NCBI GenBank assembly: GCA_036655895.1
Contig: JAVVPF010000003.1
Location: 1-64,000 of the forward strand
From: Cloacibacillus sp.
GTDB taxonomy: Bacteria; Synergistota; Synergistia; Synergistales; Synergistaceae
Direction of reading: 5' to 3'
Length of the DNA stretch: 64,000 nt
The translations under genes were made by a program, and so were the position numbers. Numbering within the stretch: the stretch's first letter is position 1; each line of letters starts with the position of its first letter. Shown here one piece after another: positions 29,936 through 50,232 of this stretch. The notes under the pieces are model-generated. The model made no database searches, was not told where the DNA came from, and saw only the letters and a program-made list of their open reading frames with translations.

Positions 29936-30046
29936 CTTCTCTTCCCCCTTATGAAAGATAAATAGAGAAAATATGTTTCCGCGTATGCTCTAAGTCAGAA
30001 GAGACAGAGCGCGCGCCCCGTCTCTTCCAGAAATGACAAAATATAT

Positions 30047-30145: not shown

Positions 30146-30176
30146 TATTCAGCACTCTCCTTTCACAGCCGGAAGA

Positions 30177-31670: not shown

Positions 31671-31750
31671 GTGTATACCCCGCTTTCCTTTTTAAAGATT
31701 TTTTAGCGCAAAAAAACAACATCCAGGCCATTAAGCCGCACTCCGTCATA

Positions 31751-31772
31751 CCTCTTTGCATTTCCAAAGAGG
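31751..31772 (-). promoter_or_regulatory. hairpin in the long 5' leader of the SLC6-type transporter gene
   Basis: CCTCTTTG (31751-31758) and CAAAGAGG (31765-31772) form a perfect 8-bp stem with a 6-nt loop. It lies in the middle of a GC-richer, potentially structured part of the leader (31690-31800). I could not match it to a known riboswitch. Confidence 0.4.
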
Positions 31773-31853
31773 CTCTTCTCCTTTCCAACGTGGATCGGCG
31801 AAACACATATTGTTGAAATAAATTAAAAATGAATAATTTAAACTGACTTTTTT

Positions 31854-31881
31854 AGTTTACCATTTTTTATATTTATGTCAA
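31854..31881 (-). promoter_or_regulatory. promoter of the SLC6-type transporter gene
   Basis: TTGACA (31881-31876) and TAAACT (31859-31854) on the minus strand with a 16-bp spacer. The upstream region 31882-32058 is A/T-rich, without a supported gene. Confidence 0.6.
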
Positions 31882-32058
31882 TAATTAAGTATAATAGATT
31901 ATTCTAAAGTAATTGTTAAAATATTAAGATGTATTATGGTCCGAAGCGCGAAAAAACTAGCTGTAGCGCGAATAAATTTAAATTTTAGTTCATACATATC
32001 AAATAGTTCGATATTATTTATTAAAAATTTTCAATTATGGTTTGGAGAATTGTTTGTG

Positions 32059-32110
32059 AAAAAATTTTTGCCGGCTCTTCATCTTCTCAACAGATGAAAA
32101 ACCGGCAAAA
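32059..32110 (-). terminator. terminator of the 33.9-32.2 kb gene pair
   Basis: On the minus strand TTTTGCCGG...TTCATC pairs with GATGAA...CCGGCAAAA (plus-strand arms 32066-32083 and 32093-32110), followed by a U-rich run (A-run 32059-32064 on the plus strand). Confidence 0.8.
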
Positions 32111-32164
32111 TTATCGAAAATAAAGCTATTAAATATTTAATTTTTATATATTAGCAAGCGCTCA

Positions 32165-33184
32165 TCATTTGACTATAGGTTTTTTATTTTGGAGCTCAAT
32201 CTCAGATTCTAGCCGCAGCAGCTCGTTGATGGAATCTAAATCCAAGTTTTTTAATATCTCGTTGCGGTTTTTTATTCCTATCTCGTTTCGCGTCATTCCG
32301 GGATTTTTTTCAAGCTGCGTAAAGGCGGAGACCTTCCTGTCGTCGTGGAAGACGTCAAAATCGACGAAGCGTTTTCCTTTTTCGTTGTACTCGAGGCCCA
32401 TCGCAAGTTTTTTTATCGTCTCCACGTCAAGCGGCGTGTAGAGCTTCAGCATATAGACCGGTATTGTGCGCCGCGTAAGCGCCTGTTCGCGCTCCCACTT
32501 TTCCTCCAGTATCATGCCTATCTGCATCCCCTGCGTCACCGTGAGCAGCCGCTGGCGATGGAGGTCAAAGAGGCCGTCCGAATCGCAGATCTTTATTTCG
32601 ATGTCGTTCCAATCCGGCGTCCCGAGCGCGTCACCGAGATATTCTATCCCGTGGACGGAGAGAAACTGCACCAGCGCGCCCTTCGACCTGGAATGTATCA
32701 GGAGCGCGCGCGGGTGGATGTCATCTATGGATATCGTTTTAGCAAGCGACTTCTGCGTGAAATATATTATCGAGGAGGTGCCGGGAAGGTTCGGAAGAAA
32801 GACCGGATCGCGGTCGATTATCTCTCCTCCAAGGTCGCGGTGTATGGCCTCCACGCCGCGCTCTACGTCCCCCAAAAGGCGCATCATAAGATACCCCGGC
32901 AGCAGCGCTACGTCCCGCACTCCCTCCGTCATGCGGCTGTTGATTATCGTTGCAAGAAAAAGTTCGATGGGGTTCTCGGATACGTATGTTTCGTGGATGG
33001 TTCCGTTTTCCGCGGGCGCGGTCAAAAAAACAAGGCGCCGGGTCGGCCCGTATCTTCGCAGCGCGCTTTCTGGGTCAAACGAGACGAGCGTGCCCCACGC
33101 CGCAAGTTTGTGCCTCATCTCCTGCGTACCTGAGGAAAGTTTGAGAGCTATGCTTTCCGGTCCCGTCCTTATCAGCGATATCAT
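32165..33184 (-). CDS. unrecognised 339-residue protein
   Basis: I do not recognise this family. It has no signal peptide or membrane segment. The N-terminal half (MISLIRTGPESIALKLSSG to about residue 155) is alpha/beta-like; a middle part contains LLIHSRSKGALVQFLSVHGIEYLGDALG and RRQRLLTVTQGMQIGM-like text; the C-terminus is charged (RNEIGIKNRNEILKNLDLDSINELLRLESEIE). GGAGG lies 9 nt before the ATG. It is 26 bp downstream of the metallophosphoesterase gene and ends at a terminator, so the two probably act together. Base use resembles the neighbours, so there is no sign of recent transfer. Confidence 0.75.
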   Translation of the reverse strand: MISLIRTGPESIALKLSSGTQEMRHKLAAWGTLVSFDPESALRRYGPTRRLVFLTAPAENGTIHETYVSENPIELFLATIINSRMTEGVRDVALLPGYLMMRLLGDVERGVEAIHRDLGGEIIDRDPVFLPNLPGTSSIIYFTQKSLAKTISIDDIHPRALLIHSRSKGALVQFLSVHGIEYLGDALGTPDWNDIEIKICDSDGLFDLHRQRLLTVTQGMQIGMILEEKWEREQALTRRTIPVYMLKLYTPLDVETIKKLAMGLEYNEKGKRFVDFDVFHDDRKVSAFTQLEKNPGMTRNEIGIKNRNEILKNLDLDSINELLRLESEIELQNKKPIVK

Positions 33185-33210
33185 TGCTCCATGCCTCCTT
33201 TTGGGATCTC

Positions 33211-33888
33211 TTAAAGATTTACTCTTTTCCGCTGGAGCCTCGCGTTGTCCGTGCCTGGCGGATAAGGTATAGCCGTCACTTCACCTGTGTGGATGTGGAT
33301 CAGATACATAGACTGGATGCCGTTCAAAAACATTTTTCCGTCCGGGGCGGCGCTTGATGTATGCTGTAGGTCGTGGCCGAACAGGTTGTACTGGGCCGGC
33401 GCGGTTGCCACGTCATGAAAGGTGTGCCCGGCCCTAAAGGTGAAATCGCCGATTGAAAAACTGCCCGGCGACGTCCACACCTGCACAGAGCTGTCGTGGT
33501 GCGCCGAAAGCAGCGTCGGCGCGTCGTCATGGTTGCCGGTGACAAGGATGGCGCCGTAATCTTCATCTGCGAAAACGGAGAAAAATTCTTTTATTTTTTT
33601 CTTGTAAAGGTCAAGCATTCCACGGCGCGTTTCTAGTTTGATGTTGTCTACAAAATCTCCGGTGTGCACTATCCATGCTGGGTTCAGCCGGCGCAGCGCG
33701 CGTTTGAGGTATGGATAAATAGTTGACGGAGTGTCGGAGATGTGGAGCACCATATCTTTTGCATCGATGCACGGAGGGTTGAGGCCGAACCAGATGCCGA
33801 GATCGTCAAAGTTTCTGATTATTGGGCAGTCTCGTATCTCCTGCAAGGTGGGTTTTGGTATGTTCGGTGGTATCCTTTGTGTCGCCAT
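33211..33888 (-). CDS. calcineurin-like metallophosphoesterase with a changed first metal motif
   Basis: A 225-residue protein with the order of metallophosphoesterase motifs: LHISDTP (D52), HTGDFVDN (D78), VTGNHDD (N119, H120) and AGHTFHD (H155). The first motif, normally D-x-H, is D-T-P here, so a His metal ligand is missing unless supplied elsewhere. The N-terminal 45 residues (MATQRIPPNIPKPTLQEI) are an extra lead. Substrate unknown. It is the first gene of a pair with the unrecognised 339-residue protein, suggesting a shared job. Confidence 0.75.
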   Translation of the reverse strand: MATQRIPPNIPKPTLQEIRDCPIIRNFDDLGIWFGLNPPCIDAKDMVLHISDTPSTIYPYLKRALRRLNPAWIVHTGDFVDNIKLETRRGMLDLYKKKIKEFFSVFADEDYGAILVTGNHDDAPTLLSAHHDSSVQVWTSPGSFSIGDFTFRAGHTFHDVATAPAQYNLFGHDLQHTSSAAPDGKMFLNGIQSMYLIHIHTGEVTAIPYPPGTDNARLQRKRVNL

Positions 33889-33957
33889 CCTATCGCCCCT
33901 TTCGTCTCAAAAAGAGACCCGAATACGGGCTTACTTAAATAAGGCAGGCAAACCCGT

Positions 33958-34545
33958 TTATTTTATTTTTTTGAGGCTGCGGCAGTCGTAGACAAAGGCC
34001 GGCGGTATGTTCATCATCACGAAACGGGTCTTGACGTCGTGGAATATTTTCGTGAAGGCGCCCTTCATGTGCAGCGAATATTGAAAGGCGACGAAATTGC
34101 CGTCGCTGGCGAGCGTCGATGAGATGCCGTCAAGCACCGCCTCGGTCACCTCGCGCGGAAGGACGGTGTAAGGCAGGCTTGAAACTATGAGGTCCACCTT
34201 TTCTATGCCCTCCTGCGCCAGTACGTTGGGCAGGCGCGTCGCGTCGTCGTATATGTCAAGGCCGGTCTCGCTGCGGAGGCAGCGGCGCAGCTCGTCCTCT
34301 ATCTCAAAGGCGAAGAGCCTTGTGTGCGGATTCATCTGATCCATTATGGCGCGCGTCATCACGCCCGTTCCCGCTCCAAACTCCGCCACCGTCCGCACGC
34401 GGCTCCAGTCGACATTACAGAGCATAGATGCCGCCAACTGAGGCGAGCTTGGAGTTACGCTTCCTATTGTGCGCGGTTCTGTTACAAATTTTTTTATAAA
34501 AAGCACTTTCTCTTTGATTTTATTTTCAACCTGTTCCAAGAGCAA
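33958..34545 (-). CDS. SAM-dependent methyltransferase, PmtA/rRNA-adenine-dimethylase-like
   Basis: A class I methyltransferase of about 195 residues. KKFVTEPRTIGSVTPSSPQLA is the lead-in seen in phospholipid (phosphatidylethanolamine) N-methyltransferases of the PmtA type; the SAM site is VAEFGAGTGVMTRAI; motif IV reads LIVSSLPYTVLP. Membrane-lipid methylation is the best guess, but this group is often only called methyltransferase. The start is unclear: GGAGG at 34552-34556 points to TTG 34545 or TTG 34539; the open frame extends to TTG 34557, which overlaps the Shine-Dalgarno. Confidence 0.7.
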   Translation of the reverse strand: MLLEQVENKIKEKVLFIKKFVTEPRTIGSVTPSSPQLAASMLCNVDWSRVRTVAEFGAGTGVMTRAIMDQMNPHTRLFAFEIEDELRRCLRSETGLDIYDDATRLPNVLAQEGIEKVDLIVSSLPYTVLPREVTEAVLDGISSTLASDGNFVAFQYSLHMKGAFTKIFHDVKTRFVMMNIPPAFVYDCRSLKKIK

Positions 34546-34619
34546 GACAACCTCCAAACTCGAGCATCTTCATAATAAATTAGCAGTAAATCTATAATTT
34601 GTACAGGCGTAGATGCACT

Positions 34620-35540
34620 TTATTGCGCAAAAACGCTAAGATATTTATCTCCGCGGTCGGGCTGCACAGTCACCACCGCAGAACCTTTCGGAAGCAGTTT
34701 TGCCGCCTCTATTGCGGCGTGGACGTTGGCTCCCGCGGAAATGCCGCTGAAAAGCCCCTCTTCGGCAGCAAGCCACTTGGCCGCCTCGATCGCCTCGTCG
34801 TCCGTTACCGTGACAAACCGCGTTATCTCGTCCATAGCGAGGTTCTTTGGGACGAAGTTCGCGCCGATGCCCTGTATCTTGTGCGGCCCAAAGCGCCCTT
34901 CGGTGACGAGCGGGCTTGACGCGGGTTCGACCGCTATGACCTCCATCTCTGGAAATTCTTTGCGCATCGCGCGTGCAAGCCCCGTGATGGTGCCGCCCGT
35001 GCCAAACGAGGCTACGAGCGCCGCCGGCTTCACTCCATCAGGGAGCTGCGCCAGTATTTCTGGGCCTGTGGTCAGCTCGTGCGCCATCGGGTTGCCGGGG
35101 TTTGAAAACTGGTCGAGCATTATAGCGTTTGGGTCGTCGGCAAGTATTTTCTGCGCCGCAGCTATAGCGCCCGCCATCCCCTCCGCCGCCGGCGTGAGAA
35201 AGAGCTCCGCGCCGAAGGCTGCGAGCACCGCTCTGCGTTCCTTTGACATAGATTCCGGCATCGTCAGTATGACGCGAAGGGAAAGCGCGCGGCCCAGCAT
35301 CGCAAGCCCTATGCCGGTGTTGCCGCTGGTCGGCTCCACGATGACGCTCTCGTCGCGCAAAAGGCCCTTCTCCTGAGCATCTTTAAGCATCCCCCACGCG
35401 GCGCGGTCTTTTATCGAGCCGCCGGGGTTTGAACCTTCAAGCTTTATCCACACCTCTGCGCCGCCGGTATCTTTTTTTAATTTGTAAAGCGGCGTGCCGC
35501 CTATAAGTTCCATTATTTCCAAATCGTCTATGTTCTTCAT
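34620..35540 (-). CDS. cysK: cysteine synthase A (O-acetylserine sulfhydrylase)
   Basis: A 306-residue fold-type II PLP enzyme making cysteine from O-acetylserine and sulfide. K44 in SNPGGSIKDRAAW binds PLP; EPTSGNTGIGLAM is the substrate-binding loop, SFGTGGTITG the phosphate-binding loop, and GIGANFVPKNL and GISAGANVHAA are family-typical. ATG 35540 (MKNIDDLEIM) follows GGGAGAG; the longer open frame to 35594 lacks a start context. A TATAAT on the minus strand at 35651-35646 could be its -10. Substrate could also be O-phosphoserine or another O-acyl serine. Confidence 0.88.
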   Translation of the reverse strand: MKNIDDLEIMELIGGTPLYKLKKDTGGAEVWIKLEGSNPGGSIKDRAAWGMLKDAQEKGLLRDESVIVEPTSGNTGIGLAMLGRALSLRVILTMPESMSKERRAVLAAFGAELFLTPAAEGMAGAIAAAQKILADDPNAIMLDQFSNPGNPMAHELTTGPEILAQLPDGVKPAALVASFGTGGTITGLARAMRKEFPEMEVIAVEPASSPLVTEGRFGPHKIQGIGANFVPKNLAMDEITRFVTVTDDEAIEAAKWLAAEEGLFSGISAGANVHAAIEAAKLLPKGSAVVTVQPDRGDKYLSVFAQ

Positions 35541-35690
35541 AAAATATCTCTCCCGTCCGTAATAAGACGCACAAAAAGCCGTCCCCGCCGTCACGCCGCG
35601 CCTTTCATCAAAATAGCGGCCTTTTCAAGCGGATGATAATGAGTTATTATAGCGCGTCTCAATATGATTGAACTGCGTCAAATGTAGAAC

Positions 35691-35719
35691 TTGCGAAATA
35701 ATTTACGTGAGGCTACAAT
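35691..35719 (+). promoter_or_regulatory. promoter of the HutG-like gene
   Basis: TTGCGA (35691-35696) and TACAAT (35714-35719) with a 17-bp spacer, 37 bp before the ATG. Confidence 0.6.
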
Positions 35720-35756
35720 CATCTGAATTGTTATTGAACGTTGGAGGAACATCTTT

Positions 35757-36740
35757 ATGGAATGCAAAGCAAAATACAGACTCAACAAAGCCGACAGAGA
35801 TCTATTTTACAGCAGGAACGACCCCAAGGACAGGCGGCTCGGCGAGCTCATAGAACGCGCGTCGCTGCGCGACGTGAAGCAGGATACCGTCGTCATTCTC
35901 GGAGTGCCCGAAGACCGCGGCGTCACGGCAAATAAAGGGCGCGCCGGAGCGGCCGCAGGCCCTGACGACATCCGCCGCAGGCTCTACAGGCTGACGCCCG
36001 GTTTTTCAATGGATTTTGAAAAGCTGGCGGTCATAGACGCGGGTAACCTTGACACGGAGGGGCTTTCGCTTGAGGCGGTCCACGAGGCGGAGACGGCGGC
36101 GGTGGCCGACATCGTTTCGCGCGGCGGCGTGCCGATAGTGCTGGGCGGCGGGCACGACCTCACCTACCCCGGAGTGGCCGGGCTTGTGCGCGGCGCGAAG
36201 ATAGAACGCGACGGCATGGGGCTTATAAACGTCGACGCGCACCTTGACGTGCGCAGCGACGAAAACGGCATCAACAGCGGCACCTCTTTCTACCGCGCGC
36301 TGACGCAGCTGCCGGACGGCGCGCTTCAGGGGCACGCCTTTGTGGAATTTGGGATACAGGAGCAGTACAACTCGCCCTATTATTATCATTGGGTGCTGGA
36401 GCAGGGCGGACACGTCGTCACGCTTCGCGAAGTCTCAGAGCGCGTCATGGAATTCTTTTTACAGGCGTTGTCCGCCGCGGGGCAAAACAACCGCGCGGTC
36501 GCGGTGTCGCTTGATATAGACGCCGTGCGCAGCACGGAGGCGCCGGGGGCTTCTGCGAGCAACCCAAGCGGCCTCAAAGCGCCGGAGCTGGATAAAATAG
36601 CCTATCTTGCCGGGCGCAGCGTCAAGGTGCGCTATCTTGATATAATGGAGGTCTCTCCGCCGCTTGACGAGGACCACAGAACGGCGGCGCTTGCGGCGTC
36701 CGCCATATTCTCATTTTTCAGAGGTCTGTGCGAGCGGTAA
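35757..36740 (+). CDS. ureohydrolase-family enzyme, probably formimidoylglutamase (HutG-like)
   Basis: A 327-residue arginase-fold hydrolase. Manganese ligands are seen in VLGGGHDLTYP, INVDAHLDVRS and VSLDIDAVRS. The family includes arginase, agmatinase and formimidoylglutamase. The text VTANKGRAGAAAGPDDIRRRLYRL and the nearby HutD-family gene favour HutG, which cleaves N-formimidoyl-glutamate to glutamate and formamide in histidine breakdown. Other hut genes are not in the window, so agmatinase-like activity is not excluded. GGAGG lies 9 nt before the ATG. Its last 23 bases overlap the convergent gene ending at 36718. Confidence 0.75.
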   Translation: MECKAKYRLNKADRDLFYSRNDPKDRRLGELIERASLRDVKQDTVVILGVPEDRGVTANKGRAGAAAGPDDIRRRLYRLTPGFSMDFEKLAVIDAGNLDTEGLSLEAVHEAETAAVADIVSRGGVPIVLGGGHDLTYPGVAGLVRGAKIERDGMGLINVDAHLDVRSDENGINSGTSFYRALTQLPDGALQGHAFVEFGIQEQYNSPYYYHWVLEQGGHVVTLREVSERVMEFFLQALSAAGQNNRAVAVSLDIDAVRSTEAPGASASNPSGLKAPELDKIAYLAGRSVKVRYLDIMEVSPPLDEDHRTAALAASAIFSFFRGLCER

Positions 36741-37356
36741 AGGCGGCCGATATAATGTCCGCAAGCCGCTCCCGCCGCGCCAGGCGGAATTTTCCGCAGG
36801 AGGCGCCTTCTTCGGCAGCCGAAAAACCTGCCCAGTGAGGCAGAGGGTTCTCACGGCCCGCTTCTATAGCGGGAGGCGACGCGAGCTCGCCGCGAAACCT
36901 TTCGCAGCCGGCAAGCGCTTCATTGAGCGAAGAAAGCGGCTCTCCTGCGCCCTCTTTCCAGAAAAGAAGGCCGCCGTAAGATTTCCATTGATTGACAAGC
37001 CCCAGCTCCAAAAACGACGGCGCGGCGCGAAAGAGCGGCAGGCGCAGCTCTTTCTCAAAGAGCCCGACGCAGTCTCCCACGGAGAAAGCGCCGCGCTCCA
37101 AGAAACCGTTCGCGCATCTGCTTACGGCGCGAATAGTTTCTTCAGCAAGCGGCAGCCTGAACCCGACGAAGGCAAGCCCGTCGCCCTTGAAGGCCGGCTC
37201 GCGGTAAAAGGCCTCTACGCCAATCTCGCATGCGTGAAAATTTTCCAGCATCGCAGAGAGCGCGCGCGTTGTGCCGCCGCGCTCCAGAACGACGCAGCTT
37301 TCCCAGCGCGAGCCTTCCGCGAACTGGAGTTTTATGACTGGCGCGCCGCTATTCAT
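36718..37356 (-). CDS. unrecognised 212-residue protein translated after HutD
   Basis: I cannot assign this to a family. It begins MNSGAPVIKLQFAEGSRWES and has no signal peptide or membrane span; cysteines and aromatic residues are scattered (FHACEIGVEAFYREP, LGLVNQWKSYGGLLFWKEGAGEP). The ATG lies inside the last codons of the HutD gene (8-bp overlap), implying coupled translation. The open frame reaches 37416, but that part overlaps HutD and is not convincing. Its 3' end overlaps the HutG-like gene by 23 bp in opposite orientation. Context suggests a role near histidine or one-carbon amide metabolism. Confidence 0.65.
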   Translation of the reverse strand: MNSGAPVIKLQFAEGSRWESCVVLERGGTTRALSAMLENFHACEIGVEAFYREPAFKGDGLAFVGFRLPLAEETIRAVSRCANGFLERGAFSVGDCVGLFEKELRLPLFRAAPSFLELGLVNQWKSYGGLLFWKEGAGEPLSSLNEALAGCERFRGELASPPAIEAGRENPLPHWAGFSAAEEGASCGKFRLARRERLADIISAAFTARTDL

Positions 37357-38002
37357 CCCATACGACGTCCACGCCTTCGGGCACGACCCACACTGAGGCG
37401 GAGACCGCCGGAACATCCATGACGGCAGGGCTTATTGTGAGGAATATCTCGCCGCAGTTGTTCGGCGTGTACGACATCAGGAAAAAATCACCTGCGTCAA
37501 GCGTTTCGTTATAGGCGCTATCCGGCGCGTCCAGCGCTATTTTCAGATCGTCCGTCACCGCGTATATCCCGCGCCAGCAAAGAGGGCTTTGCGAGAACCG
37601 GAGCATGACGCTGTTTCCACCGGCGGGCACAGGGGCCATAGAGCCGGCGTATCCCTCTGTCGTCATCAGGTTGAAGTCCACGCAGCGCCCCTTTGAGTTT
37701 GTGAGCCATTCGCCCTCAAACTCCGCGACATCTGTCAGCGGCTTCATTTTTTTCGGCGCAGTCGACTCGTGCGTCAGCTCTATGCCGCCGTCAAGCAGCA
37801 TCAAATGACGGTGCACGCCGGGAAGCGCGGTAAAGGTCGATTCCTCTTCCTCGACTATCGCGGAGCTTATGCGCCAGCCGAATTTACGCGAGGCGTAGTC
37901 CGCGCCCTCCGGCCAGATGGCAAGCTGCGTCGTGACGCCGCCGCTCCATTTTTTTGCCTCAAGCTCCGATTTCCTGACGACTTTAACTGTAATCGCGCAC
38001 AT
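37349..38002 (-). CDS. HutD/Ves-family cupin protein
   Basis: A 217-residue HutD-family protein. Family text is KKWSGGVTTQLAIWPEGADY, FGWRISSAIVEEEESTFTALPGVHRHLMLLDGGIELTHE. HutD sits in histidine utilisation loci of other bacteria and is thought to bind formylglutamate or limit pathway flux; it has no proven catalysis. The ATG directly abuts the DUF523 gene stop. It is part of a three-gene minus-strand set (DUF523, HutD, unknown). Confidence 0.85.
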   Translation of the reverse strand: MCAITVKVVRKSELEAKKWSGGVTTQLAIWPEGADYASRKFGWRISSAIVEEEESTFTALPGVHRHLMLLDGGIELTHESTAPKKMKPLTDVAEFEGEWLTNSKGRCVDFNLMTTEGYAGSMAPVPAGGNSVMLRFSQSPLCWRGIYAVTDDLKIALDAPDSAYNETLDAGDFFLMSYTPNNCGEIFLTISPAVMDVPAVSASVWVVPEGVDVVWDE

Positions 38003-38437
38003 TTATAGCCCCTCCAAATCAGAAATATTTTCCTCGCTGAAAACTTTTATCCCGTTTTCCATCAAGAGCTTCGCCGTCACTCCGGCCCCTTTGATTTTGT
38101 TACCGCTGAAGGTTCCGTCGTAGATAACAGACGAACCGCACGAAGGGCTTCGCTCCTTCAGCACCGCGTGCGCGCAGCTAAGCAGCCGCGCCAGTTTCAG
38201 CGCCTCACGCGCGCCCAGCTCAAAGGCCTTTGTGTTGTCCGCGCCGCTTTTTTCATATACGCGGCCATCGCGTATCTCATCCGGGTTTCGCGGCGTAGGC
38301 AGGCCGCCGAGCTGTTCCGGGCAGACTGGGATGAGCGTGTGGCGTAAAGAGAGCGCGGCGACGCGCTCGTTGAGGCATCCGCCTCCGCAGTAGCGGCAGT
38401 TCAGCCCAAGCAGGCAGGCGCTTACTAGAATTTTCAT
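38003..38437 (-). CDS. DUF523/TudS-type protein
   Basis: A 144-residue DUF523 protein, recognised by SACLLGLNCRYCGGGC, PVCPEQLGGLPTPRNPDEI, KERSPSCGSSVIYDGTFSG and GAGVTAKLLMENGIKVFSEE. Members related to TudS desulfurate thiouracil with a 4Fe-4S cluster held by three cysteines; C8, C39 and C100 occupy the matching places here. Whether this one is a desulfurase cannot be said from sequence. GGAGG lies 8 nt before the ATG. Confidence 0.85.
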   Translation of the reverse strand: MKILVSACLLGLNCRYCGGGCLNERVAALSLRHTLIPVCPEQLGGLPTPRNPDEIRDGRVYEKSGADNTKAFELGAREALKLARLLSCAHAVLKERSPSCGSSVIYDGTFSGNKIKGAGVTAKLLMENGIKVFSEENISDLEGL

Positions 38438-38494
38438 GTACGATTCCTCCGAAGCTATGTTTTACGGGCGCAAAGCGCCGCATAGCTGTAAAAT

Positions 38495-38522
38495 TTTAAC
38501 TGTTACGCATATATGTTATACT
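38495..38522 (+). promoter_or_regulatory. promoter of the DUF308 membrane protein gene
   Basis: TTTAAC (38495-38500) and TATACT (38517-38522) with a 16-bp spacer, about 57 bp before the ATG. Confidence 0.45.
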
Positions 38523-38578
38523 TAATCCTATCAAAATCAAATAGGTAGATTTGATTGAGAATGCGGGAGGAAAAGAAT

Positions 38579-39139
38579 ATGTTATTTACGAAAAAGTTTA
38601 GCACGGAAACGCTGAAGAAGAGTAAAAAACGTTTTTACTGGGTTGGCGGGATAATGTTCGTCATAGGCACGCTCTCGCTTGCGATGCCCCTTCTTGCCTC
38701 TTTTGCCGTTGAGACGCTCTGCGGTTTTCTGCTGCTGGCTGTGGCGGCCGGCAACGCCTTCGGCGCATGGTCCGCTGTGCGCGGCGGCGGCAGCCCGTGG
38801 CAGCAAGCTTTCATGGCGGTCATATCATTTGCGGCAAGCGTCATATTCCTGACGCACCCGCTCGCCGGCATAATGACTTTGAGCCTTATGCTCTCCGCCT
38901 ATTTCGTGCTTGACGGCATAGCGAAGATCGCCGAATATGTGCGGCTTCGCCCCATCAACGGTTCACTGTGGATACTTGTCTCCGGGATTTTGAGCATCGT
39001 GCTGGCCGTCATGATGTGGCGCAATTTCTTTACGGGAGCCTCTATGATAGGGATAATCCTTGGCATCAATTTCATATTCAGCGGCGTCAGCCTGATAGTT
39101 CTTGGACGCGGATGCTCTGAGGCGGCAAAGAAACTGTAG
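38579..39139 (+). CDS. DUF308/HdeD-family membrane protein
   Basis: A 186-residue integral membrane protein with six predicted helices (for example WVGGIMFVIGTLSLAMPLLA, LCGFLLLAVAAGNAFGAW, MTLSLMLSAYFVLDGIAKI, SMIGIILGINFIFSGVSLIV) and a basic N-terminus (LFTKKFSTETLKKSKKRF). HdeD of E. coli is linked with acid resistance; the biochemical role of the family is unknown. ATG 38579 has GGGAGG 8 nt upstream; the longer frame starts inside the Shine-Dalgarno region. Confidence 0.82.
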   Translation: MLFTKKFSTETLKKSKKRFYWVGGIMFVIGTLSLAMPLLASFAVETLCGFLLLAVAAGNAFGAWSAVRGGGSPWQQAFMAVISFAASVIFLTHPLAGIMTLSLMLSAYFVLDGIAKIAEYVRLRPINGSLWILVSGILSIVLAVMMWRNFFTGASMIGIILGINFIFSGVSLIVLGRGCSEAAKKL

Positions 39140-39164
39140 CGCGCCGTAAAAACAAATAAAGGCA

Positions 39165-39201
39165 AAAAGACGGCCTCTCGCTCTTTGAGGGGCCGTCTTT
39201 T
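39165..39201. terminator. bidirectional terminator between DUF308 gene and trpB
   Basis: AAAAGACGGCC (39165-39175) pairs perfectly with GGCCGTCTTTT (39191-39201). A/T runs flank both sides and the genes are convergent. Confidence 0.8.
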
Positions 39202-39210
39202 GCATTTCGG

Positions 39211-40416
39211 TCATTTTATTATTCCAAGTTTTTCGATGGTCTCCATATCTTTGTCGCCTCGGCCAGAGAGGTTGACCAGCACGATATCATCTTTGTTCAT
39301 CTCTTTTGCAAGGCGCAGAGCGCCGGCCAGAGCGTGCGAGCTTTCAAGCGCAGGGATTATGCCTTCCGTGCGGCAGAGGAGGCGGAAGGCGGCAAGCGCG
39401 TCGTCGTCTGAGGCGCAGATGTATTCCGCGCGTCCGCTTTCTTTAAGCGCCGCATGCGCGGGGCCAACAGAGGGATAATCAAGCCCGGCCGAGATGGAAT
39501 AGACCTCAGCCGGCTCTCCCGCGTCGTCGGTGAGCACGTAGCTTTTGAACCCATGCAGCACGCCCGGCTTGCCCATCGTGAGGCTGGCCGCGTGGTTGCC
39601 ATAGGTGAGGCCGCGCCCGGAAGGCTCGACCCCGACGAGGCGCACCTCTTCGTCTTTTATGAAGGCGGTGAAGGCGCCTATCGCGTTGCTGCCGCCTCCG
39701 ACGCAGGCGACTACCGCGTCGGGCAGACGGCCTTCGCGTTCTAGTATCTGCGCGCGCGCCTCGTCCCCTATGATGCGCTGGAAATCCTGCACCATTTCGG
39801 GATAGGGATAGGGCCCGACCGCGGAACCCAGAAGGTAAAAGACTGAGGTGTCAGCGCAGAGCGCGCCAAGCGCCGCGTCAACGGCCTCTTTGAGAGTCCT
39901 CTGCCCCTCCTGCACGGAGACGACCGTAGCGCCAAGCGCCCTCATGCGCAGCACGTTCGGCGCCTGACGCTCCACGTCCACCGCGCCCATGTATATGTCG
40001 CACTCCATGCCCATGAGCGCCGCTACCGTGGCCGCCGCCACTCCGTGCATTCCGGCGCCCGTCTCGGCGATGACCTTTGTCTTGCCCATTCTCTTTGCAA
40101 GAAGTATCTGTCCGATGCAGTTGTTTATTTTATGCGCTCCTGTGTGGTTCAGATCTTCGCGTTTCAGGAAGATGCGCGCGCCGCCGTTTTTCGCTGTGAT
40201 GTTTTTGCATTCCGTAAGAGCGGAGGGGCGTCCCACATATTCTTTGAGCAGCCGCAGATATTCCTTTTTAAATTCCGGGTCGGCCTTGCATTCGGCGTAT
40301 TCCTTTGCCATCTCTTCAAGTATCGGCGTCAGCTGTTCTGGCACATAGGAGCCTCCGAAGCCGCCGTAATACGCGCCGTTTGGAAAACCCGCCGTCATGT
40401 CGTTTGTCTGTTTCAT
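39211..40416 (-). CDS. trpB: tryptophan synthase beta chain
   Basis: A 401-residue TrpB1-type PLP enzyme, condensing indole with serine. It starts GAYYGGFGGSYVPEQLTPIL; K96 in REDLNHTGAHKINN binds PLP; AETGAGMHGVA, VGGGSNAIGAFTAF and LSGRGDKD are conserved. No trpA or other trp gene is adjacent and a terminator follows, so it is a single-gene unit. Transcription reads through an attenuator with a Trp-rich leader peptide. GGAGG precedes the ATG. Without TrpA it might serve mainly to use free indole, but trpA may be elsewhere in the genome. Confidence 0.93.
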   Translation of the reverse strand: MKQTNDMTAGFPNGAYYGGFGGSYVPEQLTPILEEMAKEYAECKADPEFKKEYLRLLKEYVGRPSALTECKNITAKNGGARIFLKREDLNHTGAHKINNCIGQILLAKRMGKTKVIAETGAGMHGVAAATVAALMGMECDIYMGAVDVERQAPNVLRMRALGATVVSVQEGQRTLKEAVDAALGALCADTSVFYLLGSAVGPYPYPEMVQDFQRIIGDEARAQILEREGRLPDAVVACVGGGSNAIGAFTAFIKDEEVRLVGVEPSGRGLTYGNHAASLTMGKPGVLHGFKSYVLTDDAGEPAEVYSISAGLDYPSVGPAHAALKESGRAEYICASDDDALAAFRLLCRTEGIIPALESSHALAGALRLAKEMNKDDIVLVNLSGRGDKDMETIEKLGIIK

Positions 40417-40471
40417 AATAAAATTCCTCCTGTTCTAGTCTCAGCTTGTCTTTTCTGTGATACAAAGATAC

Positions 40472-40505
40472 AAAAAACGGAAGAGGCAAGTTCCATCCTC
40501 TTCCG
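40472..40505 (-). terminator. second terminator hairpin of the trp leader
   Basis: On the minus strand CGGAAGAGG pairs perfectly with CCTCTTCCG around a 10-nt loop (plus-strand arms 40478-40486 and 40497-40505), followed by six U. It lies between the first attenuator hairpin and trpB. Confidence 0.8.
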
Positions 40506-40506
40506 C

Positions 40507-40544
40507 AAAAAATAAAGAGGCCCGAATGAACCCACTCGGACCTC
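40507..40544 (-). terminator. first terminator (attenuator) hairpin of the trp leader
   Basis: Minus-strand GAGGTCCGA and TCGGGCCTC form a 9-bp stem with one G-U pair (plus-strand arms 40517-40525 and 40536-40544), followed by UUUAUUUUUU. Upstream, GGUGG(C)GCAGC, which contains the Trp codons, can pair with GCUGCCCGCC, giving the 1:2 structure expected of ribosome-controlled attenuation. Confidence 0.75.
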
Positions 40545-40573
40545 GTAAAAGCACGGGCAACCGGCGGGCAGCT

Positions 40574-40633
40574 TTAGAGGCTGCGCCACCAACCAAATCT
40601 ATTTGAAGTCGTTACGTAATCAAGTTTTCTCAT
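40574..40633 (-). CDS. trpL: trp leader peptide with tandem Trp codons
   Basis: A 19-residue reading frame, MRKLDYVTTSNRFGWWRSL, with two adjacent TGG codons (40591-40586) ten or so bases before the stop. It stands directly upstream of two terminator hairpins and trpB, so stalling at Trp codons can control the hairpins. There is no Shine-Dalgarno and the predicted transcription start falls on or within 1-2 nt of the A of the ATG, so the leader mRNA may be leaderless. Confidence 0.8.
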   Translation of the reverse strand: MRKLDYVTTSNRFGWWRSL

Positions 40634-40640
40634 AGGAGCA

Positions 40641-40668
40641 AGAATACCACAAATTTCTCAGTTGTCAA
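40641..40668 (-). promoter_or_regulatory. trpB promoter
   Basis: TTGACA (40668-40663) and TATTCT (40646-40641) on the minus strand with a 16-bp spacer. The 12-bp palindrome GCCGCATGCGGC (40677-40688) lies immediately upstream and may be a site for a regulator or part of the rlmB 3' end. Confidence 0.65.
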
Positions 40669-40725
40669 ATAGGCGCGCCGCATGCGGCCTCTGCGCCTTC
40701 GCGCGTAAAGAGCGGCGCTTTGATT

Positions 40726-41571
40726 TTATCTTTTGCTTCTGGCCCATTCAAACATAGCGAGGCTTGCCGCAACGGAGGCGTTCAGCGAGCCCGCGCCGCC
40801 TTCGCGCATCGGGATGAAGCGAATGTCGTCGCAGGCCTTCGTTACGGCCGTGCCTAGGCCCTCGCCCTCCGCGCCCACTACAATGACGCTGCGCGGCGGC
40901 AGGTCTTCTTTGAAGAGCGTTTCGCGCCCCTCCATGGCAAGCCCCGTCACCCAGAAGCCGGCCTCCTGCAAAGAGGCTATCGTCTGCGAGACGTTGCCGG
41001 TCTTCACCAGCGGCAGCCTCAGCGCCGCGCCCGCGCTTGTTTTTACGACCGTGCCGGTGGGCAGGCATCCGCCGCGTTTTGGTATCATGACGGCCGACGC
41101 GCCGGCTGCTTCGGCGCTTCTTATGACGGCGCCCAGATTATGCGGGTCCTGCAAATGGTCGCAGAGCAAAAGGAGCACGGGGGCGGGAGCCGCCGGAAGC
41201 TCCGCGATAAATTCATCCGTCTCCCAGACCTTCATCTGCGCGGTGTAGGCGGCTACGCCCTGATGGTTTTCTCCGTTTGTGAGGCGGTCGAGCGCCACAG
41301 TCTCAACGTTTTGGAAGACTATGCCCGCCGCGCGGCAAAGCTCCGATATTTTTGCCCAGATGTGAGGCTGGACGTTTTTTGCAAGCAGCACCTTCATGCA
41401 GCGCTCCGGGTTTTCCTCCAAAAGCGCGATGACGGGGTTTCTCCCCCAGCAGATGTCCTCCGACGGTGCCCTATCGCCTTCCGTCTCCGGCGCGCGTCTG
41501 TTTCTGTTGTCTCTTTGGCCTCTTGAATAATCTCTTGTATCTCTTTTATCTTTCTCTCTTGGCATCGCCAT
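40726..41571 (-). CDS. rlmB: TrmH/SpoU-family rRNA 2'-O-ribose methyltransferase
   Basis: A 281-residue SPOUT methyltransferase. The charged N-terminus (MAMPREKDKRDTRDYSRGQRD) is followed by an RNA-binding domain (CWGRNPVIALLEENP) and the knotted domain: LCDHLQDPHNLGAVIRSAEAAG, IVVGAEGEGL and IPMREGGAGSLNASVAASLAMFEW. This matches RlmB-type methylation of 23S rRNA G2251, though other SpoU targets are possible. The ATG has GGAGG 9 nt upstream and overlaps the uvrA 3' end by 26 bp. Confidence 0.82.
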   Translation of the reverse strand: MAMPREKDKRDTRDYSRGQRDNRNRRAPETEGDRAPSEDICWGRNPVIALLEENPERCMKVLLAKNVQPHIWAKISELCRAAGIVFQNVETVALDRLTNGENHQGVAAYTAQMKVWETDEFIAELPAAPAPVLLLLCDHLQDPHNLGAVIRSAEAAGASAVMIPKRGGCLPTGTVVKTSAGAALRLPLVKTGNVSQTIASLQEAGFWVTGLAMEGRETLFKEDLPPRSVIVVGAEGEGLGTAVTKACDDIRFIPMREGGAGSLNASVAASLAMFEWARSKR

Positions 41572-44303
41572 TTTTCATCTCCTCCAAAAATTCTGACAGA
41601 TAGAGCGAGGTAGGGCCGTTTGCCCGCGCCACCTCTTCGGGCGTTCCTTTCGCGATGAGCCTGCCGCCGCCGCGCCCGCCCTCGGGGCCCAAATCCAGTA
41701 TGTAGTCGGACGAGGCCAGCACGTCAAGGTTGTGTTCGATGGCGAGCACCGAATTTCCCTGATCCACAAGCTTGTGCAGCAGTTTCAGCAGCTTCTTTAC
41801 GTCTGTATAGTGCAGCCCGGTCGTCGGTTCGTCAAGCAGGTAAAGCGTATTGCCGCGGAATTTCTTGCTCAACTCCGTCGCCAGCTTCACGCGCTGCGCC
41901 TCGCCGCCGGAGAGCGTAGGGGCTGGCTGCCCCAGCCTTATGTACCCAAGGCCCGATTCCTGGAGCACCTTCAGTTTGTTTGCAATGCGCGGGATGCCGC
42001 CGAAATGCTCGATGGCCTCGTCAACTGAGAGGTCCAGCACGTCCGCTATCGAAAGCCCCTTGTAGCGCACCTCCAGCGTCTCCCTGTTGTAGCGCTGCCC
42101 CTTGCAGACGTCGCACTTTACGTAGACGTCCGGCAGAAAGAGCATTGAGACCTTGAGCACGCCGTCGCCGCCGCAGGATTCGCAGCGTCCGCCTTTGACG
42201 TTGAAGCTGAAACGTCCCGGCTGATAGCCGCGCAGTTTTGATTCCGGCAGCTGCGCGTAGAACTCACGTATAGGCGTGAAGACCCCCGTGTAGGTGGCGG
42301 GGTTTGAGCGCGGCGTGCGCCCGATGGGGCTTTGGTCTACGAGCACGATGTTGCGCAGCGATTCGTAGCCTGTGATGCCATCGCATCTGCCGCAGCGCTC
42401 GCGGAAATCTTTGTCGAACTTTCCGCGCAGCCCCTTGTAAAGCACCTCATATAGAAATGTGCTCTTGCCGGAGCCGGAGACGCCGGAGAGCGAGGCAAAG
42501 ACGCCAAGCGGTATGTCTATGTTCATTTTTTTAAGGTTGTTCTCACGCGCGCCGCGAACGCTTATGAGGCCGGCGGGCTTTCTGCGCTCCGGGCCGGGGC
42601 GCCATATCCCGTCCGCCTCGCCGCGCAGGTAGAGCGCGGTGCTTGAGTTTCCGCGCATTATCTCCTCCGCGCTGCCGTTTGCGACAAGCTCGCCGCCGTG
42701 CTCTCCGGCCTCCGGGCCAAGCTCTACAATGTGGTCCGCCGCCGCCATCGTGTCGCGGTCGTGCTCTACGACTAGCACGGAGTTTCCAAGGTCGCGTATG
42801 GCCTTCAGCGTGTCAAGCAGCCGGTTCGTATCGCGCGGGTGCAGCCCGATGGTCGGCTCGTCCAGCACGTAGAGGACGCCGGTGAGCTGAGAACCTATCT
42901 GCGACGCAAGCCGAATGCGCTGGCTCTCGCCGCCTGAGAGCGTGTCCGCGCGGCGCGAAAGGCTCAGATAGCCCGCGCCGACGTCGTTTAGGAACGAAAG
43001 GCGCTTTTTTATCTCAACGAGCGCGATGCCGACTATCTTCCTCTCGCGTTCGCCCAAGTGCAGCTCTTCAAGCACACAGAGGTGTTCGTCTATGGACATC
43101 TCCGTCAGGTCCGCTATGTTGTATTTTCCAAGCGTCACGGCGAGAGCGACCGGCTTCAGCCTTTTGCCTTTGCAGGTGGCGCAGGTGTCCTCGACAAGAT
43201 AGCGCACAAGCTCGTCCTTCACCATCTCGGATTCAGTCTCTTTATAGCGCTTGTCGAGCCACGGCATGAGGCCGATGTATTTTCCGTTATACTCCCAGTC
43301 GCCGTTTTTATCTGTGAAGACAAGTTCCAGCTGTTCTTCGGAGCCGTAAAGCAGCTCCTGCTGTATCTCCTTCGCAAGCTCGCGGAAGGGGCGGCTCAGA
43401 TCCCAGCCCTTTTTCTCCGCAAGCTTCTCCGCCTTGACGAGCATATATTTCATGCTTTTCCACGGGATGAAGCCGCCTTCGCCTATCGGAAGCTCCGGGT
43501 TGACCGCAAGCTCCTCTGAAAAATGCGAATGGAAGCCAAGCCCCGCGCAGTCCGGGCAGGCGCCGTCCGGCGCGTTGAACGAAAAAAGTCTGGGCTCGAT
43601 GTCAGGCAGGCTTATTTCGCAGACGGGGCAGACATATTTTTCGGTGAGCTCCCTGTCGGCCTCGCCCTCCGTTGCAAGCAGAATGAAGCCGTCCGAAAGT
43701 TTCAGCGCCATCTCGATGGCCTCGCTTAAGCGCGAACGGTTTTCCTCTTTGACCCGCATTCTGTCGATGAGACATTCTATAGTGTGGCGTTTTTTCTTGT
43801 CCAGCTCCACCGCCTCTTCAAGCCAGTAGAGTGCGCCGTCGATGCGCGCGCGCATATAGCCCTGCTGGTGCAGCTTCAGCAGCAGGTTTCTGTATTCGCC
43901 CTTTTTAGCCTTTACGACGGGTGAGAATATTTCAAGCGGCTTGCCGGCGTAATCTTTGAAAATTATGTCTATTATCTCATCGACGCTGTAGCGGTGCACC
44001 TCGCGGCCGCACTTTGGGCAGTGCGGCGTTCCAGCGCGTCCGAACAAGAGGCGCAGATAGTCGTATATCTCCGTCACCGTCCCCACCGTCGAGCGCGGGT
44101 TGTGGTTTGAGCCTTTTTGTTCTATAGAAATGGCTGGAGAGAGCCCCGTGATGTCGTCTACGTCGGGCTTGTCCGATATTCCAAGAAACTGCCTCGCGTA
44201 TGAGGAGAGCGACTCAACGTAACGCCGCTGGCCCTCCGCGTAGATGGTGTCGAAGGCAAGCGACGACTTGCCAGAGCCGGAGGGCCCCGTGACGACTACC
44301 AGT

Positions 44304-46358
<2,055 letters not shown>

Positions 46359-46408
46359 TTGCGCCTTTCTATTGTTTTAAATGTTTTTTAAATTTATTCA
46401 GCAGACAA

Positions 46409-46437
46409 ATTGTAGCATACTTACAGGCTGCTTAACA
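46409..46437 (-). promoter_or_regulatory. promoter of uvrB-uvrA-rlmB
   Basis: TGTTAA (46437-46432) and TACAAT (46414-46409) on the minus strand, 17 bp apart, with a TG two bases upstream of the -10. No LexA box of the E. coli or Bacillus type was seen. Confidence 0.45.
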
Positions 46438-46470
46438 CAGTAAATATATTCTAAACCGATAGAGCCGCGT

Positions 46471-46501
46471 GAAAATCGAGCCGCCCTTCTCAGAGCGGCT
46501 C
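46471..46501 (-). terminator. terminator after ftsH
   Basis: GAGCCGC (46478-46484) and GCGGCTC (46495-46501) form the stem; on the minus strand UUUUC follows. Confidence 0.7.
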
Positions 46502-46508
46502 GGCTTTG

Positions 46509-48515
46509 TTATTTCTTTTCGTCCATTGGCGCGTTCATGTTTCTGTCGACCAACTCTTCTATGTCCGGCGCTTCGTTCAGAACCGCCTTGGAATCAGGCT
46601 CGCCCTCCTCCGGTTCTTTGTCTTTTTTATCTTCCGCGTCCGGCTCCTTGTCCTTTTCAGGCTTGGCCGCCTCCGCGCTGTTTTCCTGCGGCGCTGCGTG
46701 TTCCTTCTTCGGGTAGCCCAGAAGTTCGTCGAGCTCGTCGCCTTCGAGTATCTCTTTTTCAAGCAGCAGCTTCGTTATCAGCTCAAGACGCTCGCGGTTT
46801 TCCGTAAGTATCTCGTGCGCCTTGTTCATGCTGCCGTCGACCAGAGCGCGGATCTCAACATCTATCATGTGCGCTATCTCTTCGCTGTAGTTGCGGTCGT
46901 CCACGATGTCATGCCCGAGGAATACTTCGTGCTGCTTTCTGCCGAGCGTGACTAGGCCGAGCTTGTCGCTCATGCCGAACTGCGTCACCATCTGACGCGC
47001 TATCTGAGTGGCGCGTTCAAGGTCGTTCGACGCGCCCGTCGTCACGTCGCCGAAGCATATTTTCTCCGCGACGCGGCCGCCGAGCAGCACGCATATTTTA
47101 TCGGAGAGCTCCTGACGCGAGACGAGGAACCTGTCCTCCTCCGGCAGTTGGAGCGTGTAGCCGAGCGCCATATGTCCGCGCGGTATTATAGAGATCTTGT
47201 GCACCGGGTCGCTGCCCTTTATCTTGGCGGCCACCAGCGCGTGCCCAGCTTCGTGGTAGGCGATTATCTCGCGTTCCTTTTTGCTGATTATGCGGCTTTT
47301 GCGCTCCGGGCCCGCCATGACGCGGTCTATCGCCTCTTCAAATTCCGGCATCCCCAGCATCTCTTTGTCGCGGCGCGCGGAAAGAAGCGCCGCTTCGTTC
47401 ACGAGGTTCGCAATGTCCGCGCCGACAAATCCGGGCGTGCGGCGCGCGATGACGTCAAGGTCGACGCCGGGCTCTATCTTCATATCTTTAAGGTGGACTT
47501 TCAGGATGTCGCGGCGTCCGTTCACGTCGGGACGGTCTACTACGACCTGACGGTCGAAGCGGCCCGGGCGCAGCAGCGCCGGGTCAAGGATGTCGGGTCT
47601 GTTCGTCGCGGCTATCAGTATGATGCCGGCGCCCGCCTCAAAGCCGTCCATCTCGACAAGAAGCTGGTTCAGCGTCTGTTCGCGTTCGTCGTGTCCGCCG
47701 CCGAGCCCAGCTCCGCGATGGCGTCCTACCGCGTCTATTTCGTCTATGAAGATGATGCAGGGCTGATATTTCCTCGCCTGCTCAAATAGGTCGCGCACGC
47801 GGGCGGCACCCACGCCGACAAACATTTCAACAAAATCGGAGCCGCTGATGCTGAAGAACGGCACGTCCGCCTCGCCCGCCACTGCGCGCGAAAGCAGCGT
47901 TTTTCCCGTTCCGGGCGCGCCCAGCAGCAGTACGCCGCGCGGCACCTTCGCGCCGAGCTTTGTGAACTTGGCCGGGTCTTTAAGGAACTGCACGACCTCC
48001 ACAAGCTCCTCTTTGGATTCGTCGCAGCCGGCGACGTCCGCGAAGGTGACCTTTGGACGGTTGTCAAGGAACAGCTTCGCCTTGCTCTTCGCAAAGCCCA
48101 TCACCTTGCTGCCGCCGCCCTGCATGTTGTATATGAAGTATATCCAGACGCCAATGAGAAGCAGCGTCGGAAGCAGCGACGTCAGAAGCGCCGTAAGCCA
48201 TGAGTTCTTCGGCGGAGGCACTATCTCCACCTCGACGCCCTTTTCCGCGACAGTCTGCGGCAGAGTCGCCGCGTCCAGTATATAGGTCGTGAACTCCTTG
48301 CCGGATTTCAGCGTTCCCGTAAGCTGTTCGTGATCTATCTTCACCTTTGTGACATTGCCGGAGTTTACCTCCTTCATAAAGGTGCTGTAGGGCATCACGT
48401 CGCTCTGTGTTGATTTTTTATTCGAGCTGTCGGGGCCGAGAAATACATTGACAAGGCTGACGACAAGCACGATGAGGACAATGTACATCCCCACGTTTTT
48501 AGATATCTTCTTCAA
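46509..48515 (-). CDS. ftsH: ATP-dependent zinc metalloprotease FtsH
   Basis: A 668-residue membrane-anchored AAA protease that degrades membrane and short-lived soluble proteins. Two helices flank the periplasmic domain (about 9-26 and 107-129). Walker A is GAPGTGKT (199-206), Walker [30 protein letters not shown], and zinc site HEAGH (421-425). The last ~70 residues are a strongly charged, low-complexity tail ([20 protein letters not shown]), unusual in length. It follows hpt on the same strand. Confidence 0.95.
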
Positions 48516-48596
48516 ATTTTCAATCCTCGCTTTCTATCTTCTTAAAAATCTCCGCTCTGACTCTTGCGCCGATAGTGGTGATCCGTTTCGTTTATT

Positions 48597-49133
48597 TTAT
48601 TCCGCCGGTTCGGCGATGTGCACCGCCTTAAGCTGACGAAAATCTCCGTTGTAATCCAGCCCGTATCCTATGACAAATTCGTCTGGTATGGTAAATCCTG
48701 TATATTTCACCTCGACCGGCTGGGTGCGGCGCTCGACCTTGTCAAGCAGTACGCATATCTCCAGCGACTCTGGACTTCTTTCTTTGAGCAGCTTGCTCAT
48801 GTAGGAGAGCGAAAGCCCCGTGTCAAGGATGTCTTCAACGATTATAACGTGCTTTCCCTGTATATCCGTGTTCAGGTCCTTCTGTATCTTTACGACTCCG
48901 CTGCTCTTCGTCGAAGCGCCGTAGGAGGAGATCGCAAGGAAATCCAGCTGGACGTCGACTTCAGGGCCTATCTCGCGCACAAGGTCCGCGAAAAAGACCA
49001 CCGCGCCCTTCAAAACGCAGACGCATATCACTCTCTTGCCCGCGTAGTCCCTGCGGATACGTTCGCCGAGTTCTTTTACCTTTTCCCTCAGCTTTTCTTC
49101 GGAAATCAAAACTCTTCCTATTCTATATTCCAA
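48597..49133 (-). CDS. hpt: hypoxanthine phosphoribosyltransferase
   Basis: A 178-residue purine-salvage PRTase. The PRPP motif is HVIIVEDILDTGLSLSYM; LKGAVVFFADLVREI and FVIGYGLDYNGDFRQL are family-typical. The open frame reaches 49316, overlapping tilS, but TTG 49133 (MEYRIGRVLISEEKL) has GGGAG 9 nt upstream and gives the normal length. The tilS-hpt-ftsH order is widely conserved in bacteria. Confidence 0.9.
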   Translation of the reverse strand: MEYRIGRVLISEEKLREKVKELGERIRRDYAGKRVICVCVLKGAVVFFADLVREIGPEVDVQLDFLAISSYGASTKSSGVVKIQKDLNTDIQGKHVIIVEDILDTGLSLSYMSKLLKERSPESLEICVLLDKVERRTQPVEVKYTGFTIPDEFVIGYGLDYNGDFRQLKAVHIAEPAE

Positions 49134-49200
49134 AACGACGCACTCCCTTTGCGTTATTTTTTCAGACTGCAAACAATGTAAAATAATATCATATTTAGCA

Positions 49201-50232
49201 TTATCTCGCCCACCATGGGAGCGATAAATCGCAGGTATTTTTGCCAGTTTTTTTATTTTTTTCAATATCCGCGCGATGGAGCCATCCCATAGCCCGCGCG
49301 GAGTAACATATTTCAATATCCTTCGCCCACTGGAAACGCCAAAAGCCGCCGGCGCGTATGAGGCCCACTAAATTTTCCGTCCGCGCGCGCGAAAGAGTCG
49401 GAAGCGAAAGCGCCGCTCCCTGAACGCGCAGCATCTCAGAAAGAGCGAGGTCCGAAAGCGCGGCAAACTCGCGCACCTTCCACGCGGCGACGGCGGGCGG
49501 CATATCGACGCGGATCTGCGCTATCCGTTCGCGCGCCGCGCTCTCTTTTTCCGCGGCCTCCGCTTCGGCCTGCCTCGCAAGCCCCAGCATCACGCCCTCA
49601 AAGCCGCCGTTCATGTTCTCCTTTATCCACGGGATAAGGATGTTCCGAACTTTATTGCGCATGTAATCCGACTGGTCGTTCGTATAATCGTCGCGCCACG
49701 CGACTTTGTTTTCCGAAAGCAGCGCCCGCAGCTCGGCGCGAGTAAAATCTATCACGGGGCGCACGACGCAGCCGCGCCGTTCCGGTATGCCGCGAAGCCC
49801 GGCAAGCCCCGTTCCGCGCGCGAGGTTTATTAGCTGCGTCTCAACGACGTCGTCCGCATTGTGCCCCACCGCGATGAACGAAAGGCCGCGGCTTTTCGCC
49901 GTCTCTTGAAAATGTTCGTAGCGCGCCCTGCGCCCCGCCATCTCAAAGGACTCTCCGCGAAGCGCGCAGGCGTGCACGTCCACCACCTTTACGGCATACT
50001 CCACGCCCCATCCAGCGCAGAGCTCGCGTGTAAAAGAGGCGTCCTCGTGCGACGCTCCCTCTCTGGTGCAGTGGTCAAGGTGCGCAGCAACTACGCGCCC
50101 CTTGAAAAATTGCTTCATAAGCCACAGCATGGCTACGGAATCTCCGCCGCCCGAGAGCGCGCAGACTATGCCGGGAGCCGCCTCCCAGCCCTGACGCCGC
50201 GCCGCTTTAAGGAATTTAGCGCGAAGGTCCAT
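49201..50232 (-). CDS. tilS: tRNA(Ile)-lysidine synthetase
   Basis: A 343-residue N-type ATP pyrophosphatase that converts C34 of the AUA-reading tRNA-Ile to lysidine, an essential step. The PP-loop is ALSGGGDSVAM (S27 to S32); AAHLDHCTREGASHEDASF and AVGHNADDVVETQLINLARGTGLAGLRG are diagnostic. It overlaps nth by 17 bp. Confidence 0.92.
   Translation of the reverse strand: MDLRAKFLKAARRQGWEAAPGIVCALSGGGDSVAMLWLMKQFFKGRVVAAHLDHCTREGASHEDASFTRELCAGWGVEYAVKVVDVHACALRGESFEMAGRRARYEHFQETAKSRGLSFIAVGHNADDVVETQLINLARGTGLAGLRGIPERRGCVVRPVIDFTRAELRALLSENKVAWRDDYTNDQSDYMRNKVRNILIPWIKENMNGGFEGVMLGLARQAEAEAAEKESAARERIAQIRVDMPPAVAAWKVREFAALSDLALSEMLRVQGAALSLPTLSRARTENLVGLIRAGGFWRFQWAKDIEICYSARAMGWLHRADIEKNKKTGKNTCDLSLPWWAR

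Follow-up and report, generated by a model that had tools for sequence, protein, structure and literature searches.

The attenuator region lies on the minus strand (40668-40472) of the window, the whole stretch of 64,000 nucleotides from a Cloacibacillus sp. contig analyzed here, upstream of a solitary trpB gene. Its best explanation, with high confidence, is ribosome-mediated transcription attenuation of a trpB for indole salvage, and comparison among relatives makes Trp attenuation as such very highly probable. The leader, its Trp codons and the hairpins recur before orthologous trpB genes in ~50 genomes, and judged by this recurrence the predicted attenuator is above chance. The pairings between successive arms suggest a chain that would be 1:2/3:4/5:6 in the off state and 2:3/4:5 in the on state.

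The trpB gene and its leader

The trpB gene (39211..40416, minus strand) encodes a tryptophan synthase beta chain of 401 aa. It is preceded by the Shine-Dalgarno sequence AGGAGG (40426..40431, minus strand) and followed by a terminator-like hairpin (39162..39181, minus strand). The rlmB gene is located upstream on the same strand, and the trpB gene constitutes a single-gene unit because the downstream ORF is convergent. The protein scored 588 bits against the NCBIfam equivalog TIGR00263 (cut-off 392) and 167 bits against the TrpB2-type TIGR01415 (cut-off 519), and thus it is of the TrpB1 type. The closest named record is "Synergistaceae bacterium" with 84% identity. The LBCA Res6 set for stand-alone TrpB consists of E, E, T, S, A and M at six positions (PMC11917138). 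In the alignment to 5ey5, from which these positions were read and which fits the published numbering with an offset of 2, the window TrpB has E48, L54, S65, S198, F290 and K291, or 2/6, and does not carry this signature. Beside trpB are a weakly matching Ves-like protein (37349-38002, minus strand), a 144-aa protein with no match (38003-38437, minus strand) and an HdeD-like protein below the cut-off (38555-39139, plus strand).

The window's assembly is 2.9 Mb in size and 99% complete. TrpA, TrpC and TrpF had no match in it, in searches that were positive in 14/14 control genomes, and the gene was rightly predicted to be solitary. No match to tnaA (tryptophanase) was found in the assembly either. 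TrpB produces Trp from indole and serine. Based on this chemistry, and because trpA, trpC, trpF and tnaA are undetected in the genome, the window trpB probably salvages imported indole to make Trp.

The leader peptide ORF (MRKLDYVTTSNRFGWWRSL) consists of 19 codons and TAA on the minus strand, from the ATG at 40633 to the stop codon at 40574 (40574..40633). The adjacent regulatory Trp codons, TGG TGG, are codons 15 and 16 (40586..40591). Both are inside arm 1 (40580..40594), which forms the 1:2 duplex of -21.7 kcal/mol with arm 2 (40552..40572). Pairing tests and stepwise folding indicated that arm 2 is the partner of arm 1 or, in the antiterminator, of arm 3 (40530..40547). Terminator 1 (3:4) with its U tract spans 40507..40544, and its stem (40544-40517) has 12 pairs. 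Terminator 2 (5:6) with its U run spans 40472..40506, and its stem (40506-40477) has 10 pairs and a loop of 10. All these elements are on the minus strand. Folding of the 201-nt segment gives -64.5 kcal/mol, with z -2.85 relative to shuffled sequences. The original prediction had described a 19-residue leader with adjacent Trp codons, a 1:2 pairing that takes in these codons and two successive terminator hairpins before trpB, and all of them are found; it had given neither the strand, the antiterminator sequence, the cross-complementarity of the terminators nor a reason for two terminators.

In stepwise folding with a ribosome at either Trp codon, the 2:3 hairpin (-20.4 kcal/mol) is complete at nucleotide 105, ahead of arm 4. 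With the ribosome on the stop codon, 2:3 reaches only -9.0 kcal/mol, and without a ribosome 1:2 and both terminators are formed. These folds follow the textbook attenuator. In the full-length RNA, the two terminators give the lowest folding energy even when a stalled ribosome is included, and thus antitermination must be kinetic.

Pairing between successive arms

The duplex energy of native arms was compared with that of arms permuted between 24 lineage groups, in which each arm's own strength cancels. Native arms were favored in 1:2 (z -8.1), 2:3 (z -6.6), 3:4 (z -11.6) and 5:6 (z -14.6). The 4:5 pairing, between the 3' arm of terminator 1 with its U tract and the 5' arm of terminator 2, showed -14.6 kcal/mol for native and -12.2 kcal/mol for permuted arms (z -5.6, 0/20000). 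This value is for non-overlapping arms; when overlap was allowed in closely spaced terminators (self-pairing in L130), z was -5.8. Controls of equal extents gave z -1.7 for 3:6, -0.7 for 4:6 and -0.8 for 3:5, and the 2:5 pairing gave z +1.5. Lineage-specific 4:5 matching is seen, for example, in L084 (CUCUUUUGUUU/AAACGAAAGAG), L092 (GCCUUUUUUAGUC/GACUGAGAGGGGC) and L136 (GCGGCCCUU/AAGGGCCGU). The pairing z-scores and stepwise folding fit a ribosome-mediated attenuator, with an antiterminator and a terminator that exclude each other and a protector pairing over the Trp codons.

The 4:5 complementarity could be incidental, arising from the G-rich 5' arm and the C-rich 3' arm plus U tract of any terminator, in which case the Trp attenuator holds and terminator 2 is a plain fail-safe or a remnant of a duplicated terminator. 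Permuted 4:5 arms do pair already at -12.2 kcal/mol, and with the stems alone, leaving out the U tract, z is -2.9 for 4:5 and -2.1 for 3:6; much of the 4:5 excess sits in the U tract. Five leaders in one subclade (L087-L091) have terminator 1 only and manage without terminator 2. Nevertheless, a strong unconditional terminator 2 would silence trpB. A duplication predicts 3:6 to be equal to 4:5, but 4:5 exceeds 3:6 (difference z -3.6), which speaks against a simple duplication of terminators 1 and 2. The 4:5 signal also persists within family f1 alone (z -4.2), outside f1 (z -3.7) and without the five strongest groups (z -3.6). Incidental complementarity is thus considered rather unlikely, and a functional 4:5 coupling in the clade is moderately favored.

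In the window itself the 4:5 pairing is weak. The arm 4 segment CCUCUUU (40514..40520, minus strand) is complementary to the arm 5 segment GAAGAGG (40497..40503, minus strand), a part of terminator 2, over 7 bp with -8.8 kcal/mol. As many as 20 of 23 mismatched partners pair equally well or better, and the residual is just -0.8 once arm strength is corrected. Functional coupling in the window's own genome is therefore proposed tentatively, at somewhat below an even chance.

Distribution and start mode in Synergistales

TrpB was searched in 53 genomes of the family and 183 genomes of the order. Two kinds of trpB are present among them, the trp-operon type adjoining trpA and the solitary type. 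In the tree, 48 solitary-type TrpB sequences from Synergistales are in one clade with the support of 100/100. All 48 have a leader with WW to WWWW, encoded by a short ORF ~100-400 nt upstream of trpB; L138 and L149, with WWW/WWWW leaders, are among these clade members. The original prediction had named, as evidence against itself, relatives that keep the hairpins while lacking the Trp codons, and none of the 48 Synergistales clade members lacks these codons. The order-wide conservation of Trp codons together with hairpins supports the predicted attenuation by a Trp-codon leader. A stand-alone trpB unit with such a leader had been called unusual; it is the norm in Synergistales.

The trp-operon TrpB clade has no Trp leader, with the sole exception of L144 (G084), where a TrpB of this clade has a WWW leader and two terminators, by either leader transfer or independent gain. 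Its members L143, L145, L146, L147 and L151 have no leader, and other coding sequence is apparently upstream. Two of them, L145 and L147 (G073 and G072), have two equally oriented trpB copies separated by ~2 kb, and no Trp leader was found there. TrpB of the Burkholderiales MAG Nc350_bin219 (L002) is inside the Synergistota solitary clade with 74% identity and has no leader, which represents either transfer or a mis-binned contig. Short trpA fragments (G009:C12:137119-137386) are observed in a genome with solitary trpB, apparently after decay of the trp operon with indole salvage kept. In the sampled relatives, the genes flanking solitary trpB have no relation to Trp or lack a Pfam match.

Two successive terminators were called by script in 42/50 leaders, and both are visible by eye in L117, L138 and L149. 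The call of the second is weak in L124 and L127. Among the leaders, the peptide N-terminus shows free variation, whereas the WW to WWWW stretch is retained, as is the complementarity of arm 2 to the Trp codons. This pattern opposes an incidental WW peptide, and with it the possibility that regulation is not ribosome-mediated. A riboswitch or a T-box would be the other form of that possibility, and in Clostridia/Fusibacter, which belong to the closest lineages outside the Synergistota solitary TrpB clade, trpB is in fact immediately preceded by a T-box (RF00230; L004, 3619-3862; L008, 3647-3891). Related trpB genes thus carry different Trp sensors, the T-box there and the leader in Synergistota. 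Rfam covariance models, however, gave 0 matches at E<=1 in positions 30000-50000 of the window, by which a T-box or other Rfam family was rejected, and no match at the gathering threshold in the tested leader-bearing relatives. Regulation other than by the ribosome is very improbable.

The window promoter (40641..40668, minus strand) consists of TTGACA (40668-40663), a spacer of 16 nt and the extended -10 TGG-TATTCT (40646-40641), and matches the consensus at 10/12 positions. The promoter scan of the region found 3 promoter-like sites, compared with 0.2 in shuffles. The extended -10 is common to the window leader and its relatives. The end of the -10 is 7 nt from the leader ATG at 40633, and no clear Shine-Dalgarno sequence was seen before this ATG. 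It is likely that the window leader is leaderless, with transcription starting on or beside the ATG. The distance from the end of the -10 hexamer to an in-frame ATG is 6-7 nt in 20/50 leaders, of which 17 carry a perfect TTGACA, and this comparison supports the start position that the original prediction had read from the -10 box. The remaining 30/50 leaders, 3 of them with a perfect TTGACA, have a Shine-Dalgarno sequence and a spacing of 23-60 nt. By chance, an in-frame ATG within a 5-8 nt window is estimated for ~2-3% of leaders. Mapped on the TrpB tree, the predicted start mode shows at least 7-8 changes; its calls for L086, L095, L097 and L129 are less certain.

Transcription could instead start farther upstream or read through from rlmB, which is on the same strand, with ribosomes loading at an unrecognised site, and the closest relatives (e.g., L083, L084 and L087) do have a Shine-Dalgarno sequence with 29-37 nt spacing. 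Such an origin is improbable given the consensus TTGACA and an extended -10 placed exactly 7 nt from an ATG that has no clear Shine-Dalgarno sequence, as well as the recurrence of the 6-7 nt spacing across repeated changes on the tree. Genome-wide, leaderless-type promoters show no excess in the window's genome (10 hits at 5-8 nt and 11 at 11-14 nt).

Proposed mechanism and related systems

In the proposed mechanism, transcription would begin at or beside the leader ATG, and the ribosome would load on the leaderless end. When charged tRNA-Trp is scarce, which we infer to be the physiological signal, the ribosome would stall at the two Trp codons and hide arm 1. Arms 2 and 3 would then pair before arm 4 is made, and terminator 1 would not form. 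Arm 4, left free, may bind arm 5 and impede terminator 2, so that trpB would be transcribed. With abundant Trp, the ribosome would reach the stop codon and cover part of arm 2, and terminator 1 would form; a polymerase slipping past it would meet terminator 2, with arm 5 free in this state. Without translation, 1:2 would form and both terminators would act. The leaders without terminator 2 (L087-L091) would be plain four-segment attenuators. It is about an even possibility that these leaders represent an order-wide class in Synergistota, where a single stalled ribosome acts on two terminators through a chain (formation of 2:3 releases arm 4, and arm 4 then disarms terminator 2) and multiplies repression, with repeated switching between leaderless and Shine-Dalgarno starts while the switch itself is unchanged.

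The trp attenuator of E. coli and Salmonella likewise has a Trp-codon leader, the 1:2 pairing, the 2:3 antiterminator and the 3:4 terminator. It has one terminator, a multi-gene operon and a Shine-Dalgarno-led leader, whereas the window leader has two terminators, one gene and an apparently leaderless start. The his leader of E. coli and Salmonella shares the six-segment chain of alternative hairpins set by the ribosome, AB/CD/EF versus BC/DE, with uridines after EF only (PMC10989985; see also PMC1183508). As in that leader, a second alternative pairing that would exclude the last terminator, 4:5, is found clade-wide (z -5.6), although it is weak in the window alone. The last hairpin is not the sole intrinsic terminator, as U tracts follow both 3:4 and 5:6; the equivalent of CD is itself a terminator, and the amino acid and the gene differ. 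The Synergistales trpB leader would work like a his-type leader, but is not one.

Leaderless Trp leaders are already known. That of trpL in Sinorhizobium meliloti has an attenuator, but it controls trpE(G) in Alphaproteobacteria with one terminator described (PMC7298713). Streptomyces lividans trpL1 (PMC8079986) and actinobacterial trp attenuators (PMC1262725) are similar in the WWW leader, the leaderless start and the monocistronic target (trpE), and differ in targeting trpE and trpS and in having two hairpins with one U-rich stretch. Two control points per leader are also seen in the Salmonella mgtCBR tandem attenuators (PMC3641672), which use two ORFs and two signals with no intrinsic terminators, and in the tandem terminators of the rimP leader (PMC2965389), for which control by an amino-acid leader peptide is not described. 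The trpB motif (PMC11109978) and the clostridial trpB T-box are leader RNAs with a terminator before trpB, but they are from Firmicutes/Fusobacteria, have other architecture and respond to tRNA or an unknown ligand. A search of the openly accessible literature found no description of a trpB leader element in Synergistota, of coupled terminators or of start-mode switching. The principle, ribosome-mediated Trp attenuation, is known; what is new, as read from the sequences, is the phylum, the target gene, the putative coupling of terminators and the apparent switching of the start mode.

These observations extend classical Trp leader-peptide attenuation to Synergistota, on a lone trpB rather than on a trp operon. 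The lone trpB presumably recycles environmental indole, and thus the regulation would have gone along with the salvage enzyme. The ~50 leaders offer natural variants of a putative coupled two-terminator attenuator. They also allow a comparison, among natural sequences, of leaderless and Shine-Dalgarno starts on the same leader peptide, which bears on the timing of attenuation when the ribosome loads at the first nucleotide of the nascent RNA.
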